This document shows positions 28,180 to 37,896 of a stretch of 64,000 nt of DNA, in pieces. A model generated the notes under the pieces. That model had not been told where the DNA came from. It saw nothing but the letters and a program-made list of their open reading frames with translations, and made no database searches. The first letter of the stretch is position 1. Each line of letters begins with the position of its first letter. Source of the DNA: Thermodesulfovibrio yellowstonii DSM 11347 (GTDB lineage Bacteria > Nitrospirota > Thermodesulfovibrionia > Thermodesulfovibrionales > Thermodesulfovibrionaceae); the NCBI RefSeq assembly GCF_000020985.1, contig NC_011296.1, positions 1,726,001-1,790,000 of the forward strand, read 5' to 3'. The position numbers and the translations under genes were made by a program.

Positions 28180-29328
28180 TTAAGCAGCTTCTTCTTGTTT
28201 AATAGCTTCTTCTCTTAAAGAAGCCTTTGCAAAAACCATTGCTGTAGCTCTGTAAACCATATGAGCCATCTTTGAATGAGGAGCATATGCAAAGAGAGCA
28301 AATACAAATACAAGATGAGCAATGTAGGATGCATATCCAAGAGTTTCCGCTTCAGCAAGTCTCAAAATTTCTGCAAGAAATCCTGTAACTCCTACTCCTG
28401 CAATTATAGTAATCAATAACCAGTCAAAATAGCTTCCCATACCCTGTTTTACAGCATTTTTACTTCTGTTGACGATAACCAGAAACATTCCAATAATAAG
28501 AGCTATTCCGCTAATATTGCCTATAATTTTTACAATATTTGTTTGTGGATATGGAGACTCCCATCTCAGAACCCATTCATAGAAAGCAGCTATACCTGTT
28601 GTTATCGCCAGTCCGATAAAAGCATAAAGAACAAGAATGTGAGCTGTATATCTACCTTTATTTACACCGCAGAGTTGAAATTTTTTGTGCAACAATACGT
28701 CTTTTATAGTTTCATATATACAGCCATATATATCCTTACGTTTAACCTCTGCTACAGATGCAAGATCAAGCCAGTATCGTTTAACTCCATTGTAGAAACA
28801 GATTATTGCAAATGCTGCTAATGCCATAAATGGAACATCTATCCATGGAACAGCAGGCAAAAATGCTACGTAAGAAATCTCACCATTCTCACCCCTGGGA
28901 ATCTCAGTTCCACTAAAGTATCCAAGAATAGCCATCTCTCCAAGAAAAAGTAAAAGCGGAATCAGAAATATAAGAAGTAGATATTTTGGGTCTGATACCC
29001 ATTTAGCAAGAAAGCTCGGTGGCGAATAGTTTTGTATCATCAATTTTCTAACAGCACCTAAAACTTCACCAGGTTTTGCTCCTCTGGGACAGTATGCAGT
29101 ACAGTCTCCACAGTGGTGGCATAGCCATATATCAGGATTCTGGAAAAGCTTCTCTTTAATTCCCCATTGGGCATAAAGCATCTCTTTTCTGGGAAAAGGT
29201 GCTTTGTCAGGTGAAAGCGGGCATACGACAGTGCAAGTAGAGCATTGATAACATTTTTTCAATGACTCTCCGCCTGCTTTTATAATCTCTTTTGCAAAAT
29301 TCAAATCTGGTTTTACTGGTTTGTCCAT
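28180..29328 (-). CDS. qmoC: QmoC, membrane subunit of the quinone-interacting oxidoreductase
   Basis: 382 aa. An HdrC-like N-terminus holds two [4Fe-4S] motifs (CYQCSTCTVVCPLSPDK near residue 22 and CHHCGDCTAYCPRGAKPGEV near 70). About six membrane helices of cytochrome b/NarI type follow (from residue ~112 to ~355). QmoC moves electrons between menaquinone and QmoAB, which pass them to APS reductase. GGAGGGAAGAC precedes the ATG. It is last in the sat-apr-qmo block and is followed by a terminator. The gene set fits dissimilatory sulfate reduction. Confidence 0.95.
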   Translation of the reverse strand: MDKPVKPDLNFAKEIIKAGGESLKKCYQCSTCTVVCPLSPDKAPFPRKEMLYAQWGIKEKLFQNPDIWLCHHCGDCTAYCPRGAKPGEVLGAVRKLMIQNYSPPSFLAKWVSDPKYLLLIFLIPLLLFLGEMAILGYFSGTEIPRGENGEISYVAFLPAVPWIDVPFMALAAFAIICFYNGVKRYWLDLASVAEVKRKDIYGCIYETIKDVLLHKKFQLCGVNKGRYTAHILVLYAFIGLAITTGIAAFYEWVLRWESPYPQTNIVKIIGNISGIALIIGMFLVIVNRSKNAVKQGMGSYFDWLLITIIAGVGVTGFLAEILRLAEAETLGYASYIAHLVFVFALFAYAPHSKMAHMVYRATAMVFAKASLREEAIKQEEAA

Positions 29329-29339
29329 GTCTTCCCTCC

Positions 29340-31574
29340 TTAGAAGCCCTTAAATGGATTTGGACCGATTTGTCTGATTTTCTCCATAAACTCATCTATT
29401 ATTGATGGAATTCTCCAGTACTCATCAATTGCCACTTCATACATCTGCACTCTGTCTGATTCAAGCTGAAGCCTATCAAGAGTTTCCTGAACCTTACCAA
29501 GTCTGTATTTTGCAAGCTCGCTTCCTTTAGCAAAATGACATTGATAATTTTCACCGAACTTACATCCAAGAAGGAGCATTCCATCAACTCCTTTTGATAA
29601 AGCGTCTGCGATCCAGACAAGATTCATAGAACCAAGACATCTAAGCTGGATAAATCTTAATGCAGGATCAAGCTTAAGTCTATGAAGCGCTGCTGTCTCT
29701 GTTGCTGGGAATGCGTCATTTTCGCAACAAAGCACTATAATACGAGGTCTATCATCCTCGCTTGGAACTGAAACATTCTTTAGCATTGTTCCAATCATGT
29801 CAACACTATAGTCTTTAAAGGAAACGATTCTCTCTGGGCATGCACCCATACATGTTCCGCATCTACGGCATCTATTAGGCTTGTAAAATGGAACACCTTT
29901 TTCATCCTCATCAATTGCACCAAATGGGCACTCTTCTGTACAACGCTTACAGGCTGTGCACTTTGTAAGATTTGGCTCAGGGAATGAAGTATCCCACGCT
30001 CTTGGATGAACTGCTATTCCCTTTGCGACATGCTCCACACACTGAATTGCCTTCAATGCAGCACCCTTTGCATCTTCCTGTGCCTCAGTCATGTTCATAG
30101 GTTGACGAACTGGTCCAACTGCATATATACCTGTTCTGCGGGTTTCATATTGGAAACAGATAAAGTTGGAATCAACAAAGCCAAATCCTCCTTCCAAAAA
30201 AGGAAGTTCAGGACCTTGGCGATATCCCAAGTTAAGAATAAACTCTGGCTTTTTAGTTGTTTCAATGTATTTTGCCTTTGCTTCATCTCCTTTCGCAGCT
30301 GCCTCTGCAAGTCCTATGAGATAATCCTGTGGCTCTTTTGTTGTTGGAACCATTCCTGTTGCAAGAACAACCATCTCTGCTTCTATTTCTGCTTTATCTC
30401 CAAGAAGAGAATCCTCTACAGTAACCACTAATTTGTCGTATTCTTCTCTTATCCCTGTAACCTCTCCTTTTGCAAGCATGACTCCTGGGGTGTTCTGAGC
30501 TTCCTTATAGTAATATTCAAGTTTTCCAGGTGTTCTTATATCCTTGTAAATAACCATTGCTGTAGCATCTGAATTACCGTCTGTTACATATCTTGCCTGC
30601 TTAAGAGTTGTTGCGCAACACATTCCTGAACAGTAAGGAATATGCTCAGGATCCCTCTGCCCAGCACACTGAACAAATAAAACTGTTTTAACCACTCTTT
30701 CATCAGAGGGTCTCTTAATTACTCCTTTATTCTTCTTTGCAAGTTCTTCAAACTCAAAGTTTGTTACCACATCCTTGAATTTACCATATCCATATTTCTT
30801 TGTAAGTTTCTTAGCATCGTATGGCTTCCATCCAGTTGCCTGAATTATTGCACCTATTTTTATAGTTTCAGTGGAGCCATTTTTAGATATTGTTACATCA
30901 AAATCTCCTGGTTGCCCATCAATCTTTTCAATCTTTGAGGAGGTATAAACCTTAATTTTTGGATTTGATGTAACTTCATTTATAAGCGGCTCAAGATTGA
31001 CGTCACCAAGAACTCCTTTTGTATAATCATCAGTTGGCACTCTTTTGTAAAGTTTTCTTGCAAATCCGCCAAGTTCAGACTCCTTCTCAACAAGAACAAC
31101 ATCATATCCTGCTTTTGCTGCCTCTGTAGCAGCTGTCATCCCAGAAATTCCGCCGCCAACAACGAGTATTGATTTAACAGTCTCAATAATATAAGGCTCT
31201 GGAATTTCTCCTTTTTGAGCTTTAATAACTCCCATTTTGATATAATCTTCAGCGGCAAGCTGTTTTTCTTCTGGAGCTTCAATTGTCCATACAGCAAGCT
31301 CTCTTAATGGAACTCTCTCAACAAAACAACCGGGGAAACTAAACTCATAAGTTTTAACTCTTGGAGAACAGCCAGCAATTACTATGGAGTTTACACCCTG
31401 CTCAGCAATATCTTTTTTTATTAAATCAATACCTTCACGGCTACAAAAAACATCATGTACCTGTACAACAGGAACTCTCAAAGCATTTTTACCTATGTTT
31501 TGAATTTTTTCAACATCAACTGCTTCTCCTATACCACAGCCTTTGCAGATATATAGACCTATTTTCTTTTCCAT
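29340..31574 (-). CDS. qmoB: QmoB, HdrA-like flavoprotein with MvhD domain
   Basis: 744 aa. An N-terminal CxxC region (GLYICKGCGIGEAVD), the FAD Rossmann motif VVGGGISGMTAATEAAKAGYD, two ferredoxin clusters (CTACKRCTEECPFGAI and CRRCGTCMGACPERI near residues 560-600) and a C-terminal MvhD/FlpD-like domain (LCCENDAFPATETAALH...LLGCKFGENYQCHF) are visible. It is the HdrA-MvhD fusion typical of QmoB. The start at 31572-31574 follows GGAGGTAATT; an in-frame ATG 93 bp upstream lies inside qmoA's end and is rejected. Confidence 0.95.
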   Translation of the reverse strand: MEKKIGLYICKGCGIGEAVDVEKIQNIGKNALRVPVVQVHDVFCSREGIDLIKKDIAEQGVNSIVIAGCSPRVKTYEFSFPGCFVERVPLRELAVWTIEAPEEKQLAAEDYIKMGVIKAQKGEIPEPYIIETVKSILVVGGGISGMTAATEAAKAGYDVVLVEKESELGGFARKLYKRVPTDDYTKGVLGDVNLEPLINEVTSNPKIKVYTSSKIEKIDGQPGDFDVTISKNGSTETIKIGAIIQATGWKPYDAKKLTKKYGYGKFKDVVTNFEFEELAKKNKGVIKRPSDERVVKTVLFVQCAGQRDPEHIPYCSGMCCATTLKQARYVTDGNSDATAMVIYKDIRTPGKLEYYYKEAQNTPGVMLAKGEVTGIREEYDKLVVTVEDSLLGDKAEIEAEMVVLATGMVPTTKEPQDYLIGLAEAAAKGDEAKAKYIETTKKPEFILNLGYRQGPELPFLEGGFGFVDSNFICFQYETRRTGIYAVGPVRQPMNMTEAQEDAKGAALKAIQCVEHVAKGIAVHPRAWDTSFPEPNLTKCTACKRCTEECPFGAIDEDEKGVPFYKPNRCRRCGTCMGACPERIVSFKDYSVDMIGTMLKNVSVPSEDDRPRIIVLCCENDAFPATETAALHRLKLDPALRFIQLRCLGSMNLVWIADALSKGVDGMLLLGCKFGENYQCHFAKGSELAKYRLGKVQETLDRLQLESDRVQMYEVAIDEYWRIPSIIDEFMEKIRQIGPNPFKGF

Positions 31575-31576
31575 AA

Positions 31577-32824
31577 TTACCTCCTTACTCCAGTCTGAAT
31601 TGCCTTGAGGGCAGCAGATGTTGCATCCTTTCCACAACCTGCCACATCCATTGGAGCTTTTGCACAACCTGCAGAGTATATACCTTCAGCATCAACCACA
31701 AAGCCATCTATTGCATATTTAAGCCCCGGAACTTTTATTTCAATGCCCTCTGGCTGCATCCCTGTGGCAAGAACTACCATATCTACTTTCTTTCTTATCT
31801 TTTCTCCATTCAGCATATCTTCTGCAGTTACAATAACATCATCTGAATCCTTATCCTGTTCAACTGCAGCCACCTTACCTTTAATAAGATTAACCCCAGA
31901 TTGTTCTTTAACCTGATTGAAAAATTTCTCATATCTACCAGGTGTTCTTATGTCAATATAAAAGATATTCACCTCTGCGTCAGGATTCTGCTCTTTAATA
32001 TAAAGAGTATGTTTTAAAGAGGCAAGACAACAGATATAGGAACAGAAAGGCAGATGATTTTCATCTCTACTACCAGCACACTGAACAAAGGCTATTTTTT
32101 CAACAGGTTTTCCATCAGAAGGTCTTAAAATTTGTCCTCCAGTAGGTCCATTTTTAGATGCAAGTCTTTCAAGCATCATATTTGTTATTACATTTTTAAC
32201 CTTTCCAAAATTAAGATTATCTATCTTTGTAGCATCATAGGGTTTCCAGCCTGTAGCAACAACAATAGAATCAACCTTAACTTCTATTGTTTCAGGTTGC
32301 ATATTTAAATCAATAGCATTATATTTGCAGGCTTCAACACATGGAGCAGGACAATCTTTTGGACAAGCTGTTCTATCAACAACATATCTTAAAGGAAATG
32401 ATTGTTCAAAAGGAAGATAGATAGCCTTTGTTTTGTTTAAACCAAAATTAAAATCACTATCTTTTTCAACAGGACAGACTTCTGCACATGCATTACATGC
32501 TGTACAGTTTTCATTCACATATCTTGGATTAAGTTTAATTTTTACAGTATAGTCACCAGGGTTACCAGAAATAGATTCTACTTCAGCCATTGTATAAAAT
32601 GTAACTGAAGGATTTACTTTGATACGACGGAAATTAATCTCAAGTCCGCATAATGGTGGGCATATTTTCGGGAAATATTTATTTAACTGGGCAACTCTTC
32701 CGCCGAGATAAGGATTTTTTTCAACTATAATAACTTCAGCACCTGTCTCGGCAGCCTCTATGCCAGCAGTTAAACCACTGAACCCGCCACCAATTACCAA
32801 GATGCGATTTGTTTCAGCACTCAT
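31577..32824 (-). CDS. qmoA: QmoA, HdrA-like flavoprotein
   Basis: 415 aa. FAD-binding motif VIGGGFSGLTAGIEAAETGAE at the N-terminus, a NENCTACNACAEVCPVEKD ferredoxin-like cluster near residue 110 and further cysteines (CPKDCPAPCVEACKYNAI), then CAGSRDENHLPFCSYICC, as in HdrA proteins. It forms the soluble QmoAB module that hands electrons to AprAB. GGAGGCTGAGT precedes the start. qmoB follows after 2 bp. Two hairpins separate it from aprA. Confidence 0.95.
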   Translation of the reverse strand: MSAETNRILVIGGGFSGLTAGIEAAETGAEVIIVEKNPYLGGRVAQLNKYFPKICPPLCGLEINFRRIKVNPSVTFYTMAEVESISGNPGDYTVKIKLNPRYVNENCTACNACAEVCPVEKDSDFNFGLNKTKAIYLPFEQSFPLRYVVDRTACPKDCPAPCVEACKYNAIDLNMQPETIEVKVDSIVVATGWKPYDATKIDNLNFGKVKNVITNMMLERLASKNGPTGGQILRPSDGKPVEKIAFVQCAGSRDENHLPFCSYICCLASLKHTLYIKEQNPDAEVNIFYIDIRTPGRYEKFFNQVKEQSGVNLIKGKVAAVEQDKDSDDVIVTAEDMLNGEKIRKKVDMVVLATGMQPEGIEIKVPGLKYAIDGFVVDAEGIYSAGCAKAPMDVAGCGKDATSAALKAIQTGVRR

Positions 32825-32962: not shown

Positions 32963-34951
32963 TTAGTCTGGGAATATCTGAACGTATGGAACTTTCTTAA
33001 GAGTAAATGTATCTGTTGCTGGATCATAAACTGAATTGACAAATGCACGCCAGTTATTGTCATCAACAAAATCAAAATCACCTCTGTAGTAGTAGCCAGG
33101 ATAACGGGATTCTTCTCTAAAGAGAATGTGTCTTGCATGAGCCTCAAGTGAGAGTGTTCTGTGAACATTCTCCCAACAACGGAGAAGTTCATGGAGATTT
33201 GCTGCTGCAAGTCTTGAAGCATCTTCTTTGAGAAGTTGCAGCTTATTAAGACCTTCCTCTATCATTGTTTTTGAGGTCATATACCATGTTCCACATCCAC
33301 CGAAGTATTCGTCAGCAATTTTCTGAAGTCTTGCCTGATACATGTCAGGTTTGATGTAGTATGGATTGACCTTTGGATCAGTGGAATAGGTCTTGTATTT
33401 TTCATAAAGCTCAAATGGCAGATAAAGTTCTGCTGCAAGAGCATTAATATCTTCTGCTATTGTTGGTGTATATCCTGAGTTATCAAGAATAAATGCAATT
33501 GCTGCTTTTGCAGCAATTCTACCCTCTGCATGTGAACCAGAGGAGAATTTGTGTCCTGATGCTCCAACAATATCACCAGACATGAACAAGCCTTTTACTG
33601 TGCTCATTCTGTTGTAGCCCCAGAACCACTCAGCTGGTGTTCCAGGAATGTCTCCAGGTCCGCTTACCCAGAAGCCTGCGCAACCAGCATGTGAACCAAG
33701 AAGATAAGGCTCTGTTGGCATAATCTCAGATGGTACTTTATCAGGTTCTACATTTTGAGCTGCCCACAGGCCTGCCTGACCAATACACATATCAAGGAAG
33801 TCTTCCCATGCTTCTGCTTCAAGGTGTTTGAGTCTCTTGGCATCCATCTGTTTTGCAAGTTCCTGCATTGCAGTATGGGTATTCATAAGGATTGGTCCTT
33901 TACCCTGTTTCATGCTCTGCATCATAAGATGGTTTCTGATAGCTGTTCCAAGAGCCTCTGCCCATTTACCATACTTCTGGACTGCTTCTTTAAATTCAGG
34001 GATATCTTTTGCACAATAATCCTCTCCAAGAGCATTTGTTGCTTTTGCTTTAAAGAAGAGGAACCATGCACCAACAGGACCGTATCCATCCTTAAATCTT
34101 GCAGGAACAAATCTGTTCTCCATCATTGTCATCTCAGCACCAACGGTCATTCCGAGATAGTATCCAGAACCAGAGTTCCATACTGGATACCATGCTCTAC
34201 CCTGACCTTCTCTGCTTGATCTTGGTCTGAATACATTAACTGCGCCTCCGCAGCCTGCAAGAATTGCTTTTGCCTTGAAGAGATATATTTTATTTTCTCT
34301 TACGCTAAAGCCAATAGCACCTGCTACTCTATTTGGCTCTTTTGCGTCTTTGAGAAGTTTTACTATAAATACTCTCTCATAAATATTCTGAGCCTGTCCT
34401 GTTGCCTTTCTGTTGAATTCAAGGGCAGCTTTTGCAGCCTCAGCAACTATTACTTTATAGGATTCACCATTAATCATTATCTGCCATTTTCCAGAACGGC
34501 ATGGCACTCCACCATCTTTGAGTGCTGGTTTTCCAGCATCTCTTGCCTGGAATCCATCAAGAGAAAATCCATCATCTCCCTTTTTCCAAATTGGGAGACC
34601 CCATTCCTCAAAAAGATGAACAGAATTGTCAACATGTCTTCCAAGGTCATAAACAAGGTCTTCACGAATAATTCCCATTAAGTCTGCACGGACATATTTT
34701 ACATAGTCAACAACTTTGTTCTCACCAATATAGGTGTTAATAGCACTAAGACCCATTGCAACTGCACCAGAACGGTCCATTGCTGCTTTGTCAACAAGTG
34801 TTACCTTAATTCCTTTTGGTGTTGCCCATCTTGCAGCTTCATATGCAGCACCGCAAGCAGACATTCCACCACCGATGATTAGAAAATCAGTTTCGACCTC
34901 AACAACATCAGGTCTCTGACAGTATGAAAATGTGCAAGTCTCTTTTTCCAT
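32963..34951 (-). CDS. aprA: Adenylylsulfate (APS) reductase alpha subunit
   Basis: 662 aa, FAD enzyme reducing APS to sulfite and AMP. The FAD fold begins at DFLIIGGGMSACGAAYEAARW. Characteristic AprA stretches include DKAAMDRSGAVAMGLSAINT, the NVFRPRSSREGQGRAWYPVW segment with substrate-binding Arg, and SGDIVGASGHKFSSGSHAEG near the end. AAGGAGGGATAAC precedes the ATG. It follows aprB by 24 bp. The enzyme is cytosolic and exchanges electrons through AprB with QmoABC. Confidence 0.98.
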   Translation of the reverse strand: MEKETCTFSYCQRPDVVEVETDFLIIGGGMSACGAAYEAARWATPKGIKVTLVDKAAMDRSGAVAMGLSAINTYIGENKVVDYVKYVRADLMGIIREDLVYDLGRHVDNSVHLFEEWGLPIWKKGDDGFSLDGFQARDAGKPALKDGGVPCRSGKWQIMINGESYKVIVAEAAKAALEFNRKATGQAQNIYERVFIVKLLKDAKEPNRVAGAIGFSVRENKIYLFKAKAILAGCGGAVNVFRPRSSREGQGRAWYPVWNSGSGYYLGMTVGAEMTMMENRFVPARFKDGYGPVGAWFLFFKAKATNALGEDYCAKDIPEFKEAVQKYGKWAEALGTAIRNHLMMQSMKQGKGPILMNTHTAMQELAKQMDAKRLKHLEAEAWEDFLDMCIGQAGLWAAQNVEPDKVPSEIMPTEPYLLGSHAGCAGFWVSGPGDIPGTPAEWFWGYNRMSTVKGLFMSGDIVGASGHKFSSGSHAEGRIAAKAAIAFILDNSGYTPTIAEDINALAAELYLPFELYEKYKTYSTDPKVNPYYIKPDMYQARLQKIADEYFGGCGTWYMTSKTMIEEGLNKLQLLKEDASRLAAANLHELLRCWENVHRTLSLEAHARHILFREESRYPGYYYRGDFDFVDDNNWRAFVNSVYDPATDTFTLKKVPYVQIFPD

Positions 34952-34975: not shown

Positions 34976-35404
34976 TTACTCTTTTCTGGCTTCATAGTTA
35001 AAGTAGCCAGGTCCTTTAATCTTTCCATAATCAGGATCAGGAAGTCCTGCATAGATATTGTCTGCATTCCAATAACCTTCTGGGGTAAGTCTGATTGGGA
35101 ATTTGAATCTCTTGATAGAGCCATTTCTGAATTTAATTGTCCACATGATTGCATCCTGACCTCTCATAGGAATAACGCTTGCACCGAGAGGGCAGAAATC
35201 TGCATAACCTCTTACCTCAATTGCCTGCTGGGGGCAAATTTTTACACAGTTATAGCACTCCCAGCACTGGTCTGGCTCCTGGTTGAAAGCCTTCATCTTT
35301 TCCCTGTCTAAGGTCATAAGGTCATTGGGACAGATGTACTGACATGCAGTCTTGTCCTGTGCTTTGCAGCCGTCACACTTTTCTTGAATTACAAAACTTG
35401 GCAT
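34976..35404 (-). CDS. aprB: APS reductase beta subunit (ferredoxin-type)
   Basis: 142 aa with two [4Fe-4S] clusters: CDGCKAQDKTACQYICP near the N-terminus (with the family's loop insertion) and CWECYNCVKICPQQAI near residue 47. The C-terminal ~70 residues form the tail that wraps around AprA. It carries electrons from Qmo to the AprA FAD. It precedes aprA on the minus strand, the usual aprBA order, and follows the 133-aa protein. Confidence 0.98.
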   Translation of the reverse strand: MPSFVIQEKCDGCKAQDKTACQYICPNDLMTLDREKMKAFNQEPDQCWECYNCVKICPQQAIEVRGYADFCPLGASVIPMRGQDAIMWTIKFRNGSIKRFKFPIRLTPEGYWNADNIYAGLPDPDYGKIKGPGYFNYEARKE

Positions 35405-35430
35405 AGCTTAACCTCCTTTTTTTGTTTTTA

Positions 35431-35832
35431 TTATGCTGGTTTTTGCACTGGATTTTTTTGTAATTCCAGCACATCACTTATGTCAATATCAGGAACTGGA
35501 AGCTCTTTGTCTTCCTTTGCAACATCATCCTTAATTGATGGAATCTCTGCAACAGCTTTTTCCATAACTTCAGGTCCTAAAGACTTCAACTCAACTATTT
35601 TCTTAAAAACTAATCTTTTGAATGCTGCAGGTGTTTCTTCAATGAATCCTCTTGCATCAAATCTTGCTTTACCAAACTGCTCAATTACTTTCTGTCCAAG
35701 TTCATCAGGAACTTCAATAACCAAACGCTTTAATGCTCCACCAAAAATTGGTTCAACTTTTTCTTCAAGGGGGGTTCCCTTTATAGCTGCTAATCTTTTC
35801 TCATCAATTATTACGCCAAAAAATTTAGCCAT
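35431..35832 (-). CDS. Protein of unknown function between sat and aprB
   Basis: 133 aa, no cysteines, no signal peptide, no membrane helix. It begins MAKFFGVIIDEKRLAAIKGT and has an alpha/beta first half (about 1-90: GGALKRLVIEVPDELGQKVIEQ, FDARGFIEETPAAFKRLVFK) and a Pro/acidic, probably disordered tail. I do not recognise a characterised family. It lies 12 bp after sat and 26 bp before aprB with its own GGAGGTGAATA site, so it must be co-expressed with the sulfate-activation enzymes. A chaperone or adaptor role for Sat or AprAB is only a hypothesis. Confidence 0.85.
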   Translation of the reverse strand: MAKFFGVIIDEKRLAAIKGTPLEEKVEPIFGGALKRLVIEVPDELGQKVIEQFGKARFDARGFIEETPAAFKRLVFKKIVELKSLGPEVMEKAVAEIPSIKDDVAKEDKELPVPDIDISDVLELQKNPVQKPA

Positions 35833-35844
35833 TATTCACCTCCT

Positions 35845-37230
35845 TTATTTTTTTAAGTGAGCTGGAAGTTCCATATGAGGGAGATCAACTTCTAATCTCT
35901 CCTCTCTCTCTTTAAGATACTTCTCATTATTAAATGGATATCCAAACTTCTGCCACCATTTTACAACAACTTTATAAACCTCAGGTCTGTAAATCTGTGG
36001 TGGTGGTGTTACTCCTTCATTTATAAGTCCTCTGATGAAGCTTCCTGAATATCTTGAGTAAATACCTTTATGATTACAATTTGCAGAGTATGCGAATTCA
36101 AGGCACTTTGGACAATACCAGAATTCAGCAATATTCTGTGGTCTTAGATAGAATCCACCTTCAACTGCATAAGGTGGAGCATCAAATCCAAAGCTTGGAA
36201 TGCCCTTAGACCAGAGAATTTGAGTTGCATAAATATCATAATACTCACCCAATGCTGCATGGTCTCTTCCAAACATATGGAAGGAAATTCCCATGTTCTG
36301 TCTGATTACTGCATGAATGAGAGACTCTATTGGATTACCATATCTCATATCCCAGAGTGTGAAGGTTACAAGATGACGCTCTGGCTTAATGTAGCCAGCA
36401 AGATGAACCATTTCATGACCTTCTACAATTGCTTCATCTGGAAAATCACCAATTCTTTTCGCACCGACTATTGCATTAACAACAATACCATGAGAAGGCT
36501 CTATATCACCTATGTATGCAGCATTTTTCATTAATGCTTCATGCCCTGTATGAGGCACATTTCTTGTCTGGTGAGCAATAACTGTTGTCCATCCTCTTTT
36601 CTCAAACTCTTCTCTTGATCTCTTTGGTGGATACCAGAACCTATCAAATGGTGGTCTTATTTTAGGCTCATTAATTATCGTATATTTTCCAGCAAGAATA
36701 ATTGGATTCAATGAGCAATAAATGTTATATCCTGTATGTTTCTGATCAAATGGAACTTTAACAACCTCAGGATTATGCTCAGGAGTTCCAAAAGTTCTGA
36801 CTGCTACTTCACCAGGAGCAATCTCATAAACCTCTTCAATTTCAAGGATTGCAAAGGGTTCACCCTTAAGTCTGAGCAAGAGCCAGTCACCTGCTCCAAC
36901 CCCAAGTTTTTTAAAGTCTTCCTCTGAAATGTCAAAAAGAATTGGATAGGGGAATACCCATCCACTTGTGAGTCTTCTTTTTTCAAGAACACTCTCCAAA
37001 TCAGCTTTTGTCATGGAACCTTCAACAGGACTGAAGAAACCATAACATACTGACATAATTTCCCTGTAAACATTTCTTACAGGATTGCCCTTAAAAAGAG
37101 TAGGCTTGATGTCGTAAACTGCAGAACATTTTTGCATTAACTTCCTTGCCATTTCAGGGTCACGGACAACCCTCTCAACAAGCTTCCCACCATGTGGCGG
37201 TGGCAGTGTTTTAATTCTTACATCTGGCAT
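35845..37230 (-). CDS. sat: Sulfate adenylyltransferase (ATP sulfurylase)
   Basis: 461 aa, homo-oligomeric Sat/MET3 type. ATP-binding and catalytic motifs: AHQTRNVPHTGHEALMKNA (QxRN..HxGH), GAKRIGDFPDEAI and MFGRDHAALGEYYDIYATQI (GRDHAG-like). A zinc-binding WYCPKCLEFAYSANCNH occurs near residue 375. It activates sulfate with ATP to APS and PPi in the cytoplasm. AGGAGGGAAAGGT precedes the ATG. It follows adk by 18 bp and leads the apr-qmo block. Confidence 0.98.
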   Translation of the reverse strand: MPDVRIKTLPPPHGGKLVERVVRDPEMARKLMQKCSAVYDIKPTLFKGNPVRNVYREIMSVCYGFFSPVEGSMTKADLESVLEKRRLTSGWVFPYPILFDISEEDFKKLGVGAGDWLLLRLKGEPFAILEIEEVYEIAPGEVAVRTFGTPEHNPEVVKVPFDQKHTGYNIYCSLNPIILAGKYTIINEPKIRPPFDRFWYPPKRSREEFEKRGWTTVIAHQTRNVPHTGHEALMKNAAYIGDIEPSHGIVVNAIVGAKRIGDFPDEAIVEGHEMVHLAGYIKPERHLVTFTLWDMRYGNPIESLIHAVIRQNMGISFHMFGRDHAALGEYYDIYATQILWSKGIPSFGFDAPPYAVEGGFYLRPQNIAEFWYCPKCLEFAYSANCNHKGIYSRYSGSFIRGLINEGVTPPPQIYRPEVYKVVVKWWQKFGYPFNNEKYLKEREERLEVDLPHMELPAHLKK

Positions 37231-37248: not shown

Positions 37249-37896
37249 TTACTTTTTTTCTAAGATTGCACAGATACTGTTAAATATCTCATCTATACTA
37301 CCTGTGCCCGAAACACTTTTAAGAATTCCTTTTTTTGAATAATAATCAATTAAAGGCTCTGTCTGAGCTCTGTAGACTTCAAGTCTTTTTCTAATTGTTT
37401 CTTCTTTATCATCATCTCTCTGGAAAAGTTCTCCACCACATTTATCACATTTACCCTCTACCTTGGAAGGCGAATAATATACATTATACATCTGTCCGCA
37501 GGACTTACAGGTTCTTCTTCCTGTAAGCCTCTTCATAAGATCATCAAAAGGAACATCCAGATTCAATGCTAAATCCAAAGGCATATTCATTTCAGAAAGC
37601 ATTTTATCAAGAGCTTCTGCCTGTGCAACATTTCTTGGAAAACCATCAAGAATAAAACCTTTTTTGCAGTCATTCTGAGAAAGTCTCTCTTTAACCATTC
37701 CAAGAACAACTTTGTCAGGAACAAGTTCTCCTCTATCCATATAAGCTTTCGCTTCTTTACCAAGCGGAGTTCCTGCTGCAACTGCTGCCCTGAGAAGATC
37801 TCCTGTAGAAATCTGAGGTATACCATATTTTTCCACTAATCTTTTTGCCTGAGTACCTTTGCCTGCTCCTGGAGCACCCAAGAATACTAATCTCAT
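37249..37896 (-). CDS. adk: Adenylate kinase
   Basis: 215 aa with the long LID form. P-loop [17 protein letters not shown]-binding [24 protein letters not shown], and a LID with four cysteines ([10 protein letters not shown] and CDKCGGELF) that likely bind zinc, a thermostability feature. It interconverts ATP, AMP and ADP. Its place directly before sat fits recycling of the AMP produced by APS reductase. AAGGAGGCTTCA precedes the ATG. Confidence 0.98.

Follow-up and report, generated by a model that had tools for sequence, protein, structure and literature searches.

In the sulfate-activation operon of Thermodesulfovibrio yellowstonii DSM 11347, a gene for a 133-residue protein stands between sat and aprB, and its position raises the question of which enzyme, if any, the protein serves. 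The window (the whole stretch of DNA analysed) is 64,000 nt long, and NCBIfam searches with the neighbouring proteins gave the gene order adk – sat – DUF6955 ORF – aprB – aprA – qmoABC. The features, in window coordinates, are:

37249..37896, minus strand: adk, adenylate kinase, 5' of sat and on the same strand (NCBIfam)
35845..37230, minus strand: sat, clade II ATP sulfurylase with a QTRNVPHTGH motif and a Cys3His zinc site (NCBIfam, tree, motif)
35839..35844, minus strand: Shine-Dalgarno-like AGGAGG of the DUF6955 gene, abutting the sat stop codon (sequence)
35431..35832, minus strand: DUF6955 gene, type II, 133 aa, protein P0001 (Pfam PF22271, dN/dS, AlphaFold)
35434..35505, minus strand: tail of the DUF6955 protein, residues 110–133 (ELPVPDIDISDVLELQKNPVQKPA), kept across 28 type II proteins
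34976..35404, minus strand: aprB, APS reductase beta subunit (TIGR02060)
32963..34951, minus strand: aprA, APS reductase alpha subunit (TIGR02061)
28180..32824, minus strand: qmoA, qmoB and qmoC, 3' of aprA (QmoC by NF038018; qmoA and qmoB encode two HdrA-like proteins by NCBIfam and are named by position)

The ORF starts with ATG, comprises 133 codons and is separated by 12 nt from sat and by 26 nt from aprB, with the AGGAGG placed 6 nt 5' of the ATG. This agrees with an earlier note on this DNA, made from the sequence alone, which described a 133-aa ORF with short gaps and its own ribosome site; the statement that the protein lacks cysteines is likewise correct, and no membrane helix is evident in the sequence or the structural model, as had been claimed. 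The upstream enzyme is a homo-oligomeric ATP sulfurylase by its matches to sopT (411.5 bits, cut-off 322.95) and PRK04149 (465.4 bits, cut-off 387). A consensus scan of the minus strand found nothing like a sigma-70 promoter in the sat–aprB interval; the region upstream of adk has two such sites, a number not above that in shuffled sequences. A plus-strand ORF of 158 codons (35384–35860) spans the entire DUF6955 gene and is taken as an antisense shadow of its coding strand. The median dN/dS of the DUF6955 gene is 0.063 (28 pairs of eight equal-length genes at genus level), and that of sat is 0.030 (55 pairs, 11 genes). The minus-strand ORF is therefore a real gene under purifying selection.

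The earlier note regarded the protein as one of no known family. It matches Pfam DUF6955 (PF22271) with an E-value of 2.5e-28 and 98.6 bits (gathering score 27 bits), residues 6–93 aligning to positions 4–90 of the 91-position model, so that residues 94–133, tail included, lie outside the match. Pfam assigns no function to the family. DUF6955 was the only Pfam match at E-values up to 1, and searches of NCBIfam (E up to 0.1), PHROGs and, by sequence, the PDB (best E 0.37) returned nothing. The 134 distinct DUF6955 proteins collected comprise 92 of type I (96–112 aa, one fragment excepted), 28 of type II (118–134 aa), to which the window protein belongs, and 14 of type III (106–110 aa). Across 133 of them only M1, G32 and P68 are invariant, with L22, K35 and D59 nearly so. 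The C-terminal tail had been described as disordered, acidic and proline-rich. It is indeed acidic and rich in proline, but it is not mere filler, since it is conserved and partly folded in the AlphaFold model (residues 101–133 at pLDDT 60–88, with a short helix at 119–126). Within the genus the mean dN is 0.035 for the tail and 0.072 for the core (eight genes), showing that the tail is the more strongly conserved part. The motif LP.P[DEN][IV] is kept in all 28 type II proteins, and the long tail form recurs in three proteins of Desulfobacterota (L173, L179 and L181).

AlphaFold modelling of the window protein from the 133-protein alignment, in which types I and III served as rows, gave a compact alpha/beta structure of four strands and six helices with a less certain tail (pLDDT 91.9, pTM 0.79). 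No clear match was found among PDB chains (Foldseek best E 1.4; VIA best Z 3.2), a result too little to establish a new fold.

How closely the gene keeps to sat was assessed in several samples. Among the nearest relatives (61 genomes, own genome included), DUF6955 is present in 19, in every case directly 3' of sat. A wide scan covered one genome from each of 84,980 species; its query, an alignment of six relatives, gave 93 confirmed matches. Eighty of these loci, picked by DUF6955 alone, were examined; by record title they come from Thermodesulfobacteriota, Bacillota, Chloroflexota, Nitrospirota, Nitrospinota, SAR324, KSB1, Aerophobetes and others. In 77 of them a same-strand sat precedes DUF6955, the two matches being no more than 141 nt apart. 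By comparison, aprB is directly downstream in 33 of the 80 (three further contigs stop within 500 nt), and aprA or aprB occurs anywhere in the locus in 39. In the three other loci, the contig ends just past a sulfatase-like gene judged by eye (L069), a sulfatase gene and a PAPS-reductase-domain gene intervene in the same gene row as sat (L087), or 0.4 kb separates DUF6955 from a Sat belonging to the other clade (L094). In the 247 genomes of Desulfobacterota, 40 of 55 DUF6955 matches directly follow a Sat match; the other 15 are 12 type III genes, two cut by contig ends (one of which, L168, still has the end of sat upstream) and one match below the cut-off. In the phylum of Desulfofundulus (199 genomes), DUF6955 was found in the query genome only. 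As far as an excerpt on Desulfotomaculum reducens goes, its sat and aprB have consecutive locus tags, and it seems to carry no DUF6955 gene between them.

Divided by type, sat is directly upstream of 86 of the 92 type I genes (counting L094, where the Sat is of another clade) and 27 of the 28 type II genes. The seven misses are two contig ends (L021, L173), two loci with other neighbours (L069, L087) and three (L073, L085, L091) in which a sat match lies upstream and was left uncounted, apparently as the gene runs off the contig. Type III is different: none of its 14 genes is next to sat, and dsrAB is found in the same stretch in ten (L149, L150, L183–L187, L189, L192 and L193), within 2 kb in nine. 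In three of these (L184, L185 and L187) an unnamed protein of 113–133 aa and a TPR protein are encoded between the type III gene and dsrAB; the small protein of L185, the one locus whose proteins were searched, has no Pfam match. Because type III sits near dsrAB and not sat, a link to sat or apr is not universal in the family. Scattered homologs with no tie to sat or apr, which the earlier note named as the refuting outcome, were not what the searches showed: the sat link is kept widely, with type III as the departure.

The Sats that precede DUF6955 form a class of their own. In a quickly built tree of 136 Sat rows, 81 sequences of clade I and 27 of clade II, all with DUF6955, split from the rest with an SH-aLRT of 100; the sole exception is L094. 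Clade I and II rows were found via DUF6955 and the others came from Nitrospirota, so that a census of 148 Nitrospirota genomes is the fairer test. There, with Sats classed by the tree or by best match to its rows, 15 of 16 clade I or II Sats are followed by DUF6955 and for the sixteenth (G062) the contig stops 7 nt past the match, while none of the 96 Sats outside these clades is followed by it. For 51 of the latter stretches absence was taken from the genome search and not from the flanks, and 11 fragmentary Sat matches below the cut-off were left out of the census. In the sixteenth Nitrospirota genome with DUF6955 (G112), the gene is found at the end of a contig.

The linked Sats also differ at the active site, where they read QTRNVPHxGH in place of QxRNP(I/M)H elsewhere, so that HxxH becomes HxGH. 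In clade I, as in clade II, more than 85% of the Sats have the V, P and G of VPHxG, against fewer than 10% of 28 others. The solved Sat of Methanothermococcus thermolithotrophicus (8a8d) has QTRNVPHLGH and falls in the motif class of the linked enzymes. The Cys3His zinc motif, on the other hand, is found in all linked and all 28 unlinked Sats alike.

Pairing extends to the subtypes. No type I gene was found with a clade II Sat and no type II gene with a clade I Sat; two genomes (G181 and G492) carry both DUF6955–Sat pairs, each cognate, and G521 has two type II pairs. Sat and DUF6955 were also replaced together: between a locus from the window's genus (L009) and L007, AprB is 86% identical, Sat 45% and DUF6955 30%. 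In the genomes, the DUF6955 gene pairs near-constantly, subtype by subtype, with one Sat class. In the exceptional genome, G177 (L094/L155), a gap of about 0.4 kb separates the type I gene from the sat before it. That Sat, which is of the other clade, is the sole one found there, and sat has perhaps been replaced.

On these grounds, namely the pairing by Sat clade and subtype, the co-replacement, the purifying selection and the occurrence of DUF6955 without detected aprA (below), the DUF6955 protein is probably a cognate accessory subunit of the homo-oligomeric Sat class with QTRNVPHxGH. It would bind Sat. The alpha/beta core may provide the contact and, in type II, the conserved tail a second one. 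A tentative role would be the tuning of Sat through its oligomeric state, the closing of the active-site groove, or the release of APS or pyrophosphate; the protein would not be a carrier of APS to AprAB. Given the type III genes near dsrAB, Sat does not serve as partner throughout the family.

Several observations count against a Sat subunit, among them L094, the dsr-linked type III and the fact that most Sats work without DUF6955. Docking gave no help either. Sat and the DUF6955 gene are in frame in the window, and reading through the sat stop codon joins the two proteins by five residues. This single chain, with a monomeric Sat, was modelled from 110 alignment rows (36 of them Sat–DUF6955 pairs) at pLDDT 87.0 and pTM 0.74; judged by our own yardstick, used without a Sat-alone control, of about 0.73–0.75 for chains with no fixed placement and above 0.85 for those with one, the model lends no support to docking on the Sat monomer. 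A natural Sat–DUF6955 fusion was considered at L171, which has a long open frame, and was discarded since sat lies in another frame. Mirror-tree comparison was also rejected as a decider. Over 53 loci with AprB, DUF6955 distances correlated better with Sat (r 0.86) than with AprB (r 0.54), but this overall preference comes from the split between types I and II. Within types there is none for Sat: with types taken together the values were 0.73 for AprB and 0.57 for Sat, and within type I alone 0.59 and 0.54.

Among other readings, the protein might be an expression regulator, binding nucleic acid or sensing nucleotides, that travels with the operon, type III regulating dsrAB. Its small size would suit such a role, as would the location of ten of the 14 type III genes near dsrAB, by which one family would be attached to several sulfate-reduction operons. 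Against this, Pfam gives no match besides DUF6955 at E-values up to 1, no clear PDB fold was recovered, the gene has a mid-operon position, and a regulator would not be expected to pair with an enzyme clade; we consider a regulator unlikely.

That the protein makes no contact with Sat and, as a small enzyme or binder, removes or buffers APS or pyrophosphate is distinctly unlikely. Sat assays are limited by pyrophosphate removal, according to the part of the paper available (PMC10322725), and product affinity might be different in a special Sat class. However, the 133 aligned proteins contain no conserved set of residues that looks catalytic, and the handling of a free metabolite should need no version specific to a Sat subtype.

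The earlier note proposed that the protein helps Sat or AprAB, by assembly, channelling of APS or regulation. The link to the sulfate-activation operon stands, and the evidence favours the Sat side of this proposal; AprAB, or APS channelling to it, is unlikely as a general role. Such service to AprAB or AprAB–Qmo, whether in assembly or in passing APS on from Sat, would explain why the gene lies between sat and aprB in the window and 13 genus-level loci and why aprB directly follows in 33 of the 80 loci, and within types DUF6955 follows AprB no less closely than Sat. The presence and absence of the genes argue the other way. In the 148 Nitrospirota genomes, aprA is over the cut-off in 61, DUF6955 is present in 16 and both are in 15, leaving 46 of the 61 aprA-positive genomes without DUF6955. 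Two sats share one contig (C9 of G021; L002 and L119) at a distance of about 10 kb. The common-clade sat, adjacent to aprBA, lacks DUF6955, and the gene accompanies the other. Of 25 genomes tested for aprA, 19 were over the cut-off; one with a 55-residue aprA piece (G180) was left out, and the DUF6955 match of another (G590) was below its own cut-off. Four with DUF6955 (G175, G176, G178 and G179), all metagenome-assembled and possibly incomplete, had no aprA over the cut-off, and Sat was found in G175, G176 and G179. G175 carries an APS-kinase-like gene before sat; such a gene, recognised by eye from its sequence, precedes sat in L033 and L025. In G176 the row includes a gene with a PAPS-reductase domain. 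In Sulfolobus acidocaldarius, the control genome, DUF6955 and Sat both exceed their cut-offs and aprA matches only below its own, and adjacency to Sat was not seen there. With a Sat-clade link, 46 of 61 genomes lacking the gene and DUF6955 occurring beside sat without aprA over the cut-off, help to AprAB or APS channelling is unlikely to be general; AprAB as a general partner is rejected on presence and absence, and we rate any dedicated service to it as improbable.

Finally, that DUF6955 hitchhikes in the operon and has a minor or dispensable function, as its absence from many aprA-positive genomes might suggest, is very improbable in view of the purifying selection, its retention beside sat in Nitrospirota, Desulfobacterota, Bacillota, Chloroflexota and others, and the cognate pairing in two-Sat genomes.

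For an accessory subunit of Sat, the nearest working analogy is the small protein DsrD, which is said to activate DsrAB allosterically. DUF6955 is likewise a small protein encoded beside one core sulfate-reduction enzyme; there is no sign of a shared family, DUF6955 being its only Pfam match, and its proposed partner is Sat. We take the order in Archaeoglobus fulgidus (AF1667–AF1670) to be sat, a gene of unknown function, aprB and aprA; AF1668 was not mentioned in the literature among the matches listed. What we presume to be QmoD, the promoter-distal gene without named function in the qmoABC operon of Desulfovibrio vulgaris, is reportedly the subject of a study of its effect on sulfate reduction. 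Compared by title, it resembles DUF6955 as a functionally uncharacterised gene of the apr/qmo region, but QmoD lies at the distal end, after qmoABC. CysD, of the heterodimeric ATP sulfurylase CysDN, belongs to another enzyme family, and CysN is a much larger GTPase; DUF6955, unlike CysN, has no GTPase match in Pfam. The likeness to the role proposed here lies in CysN being an accessory component of an ATP sulfurylase, its regulatory GTPase subunit according to the available portion of one paper (PMC10322725). A literature search found no paper naming DUF6955 or PF22271, and the gene is not described in the accessible portions of PMC4148979, PMC4149029, PMC4759654, PMC3779200, PMC6338057, PMC10322725, PMC10591310 and PMC10504309.

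The chemistry and the pathway are already known; the novelty would lie in homo-oligomeric Sat having an accessory subunit. Sulfate enters the biological sulfur cycle through ATP sulfurylase, and the enzyme's kinetics and product release influence how much energy sulfate respiration costs. If the proposal is correct, activities measured on Sat alone, for enzymes of the QTRNVPHxGH class, may reflect an incomplete enzyme, and the DUF6955 gene would mark its Sat class in metagenomes; a family without a name gains a testable function. A bolder version, which we offer as conceivable more than as expected, is that the altered-motif Sat class of several bacterial phyla, and perhaps archaea, consists of two components, the small subunit being obligate and possibly of a new fold, and that a branch of DUF6955 serves DsrAB. 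In that version, sulfate reducers would carry a family of enzyme-specific small regulators at both ends of the pathway (Sat and DsrAB).

Two unusual gene rows and one plasmid match were also noted. In an Aerophobetes locus (L153), sat, a sulfatase gene, a PAPS-reductase-domain gene and DUF6955 stand in one row; a second (L154) has the same row without sat, at a contig end, plus adk and a HIT-like gene by eye. Neither genome has aprA, and the rows are perhaps a sulfate-assimilation or sulfation cluster. The sole match on a plasmid (NZ_CP061967.1:19001-19273, 68% identity) is in an unannotated 21.8-kb record of Klebsiella pneumoniae and may be assembly contamination.
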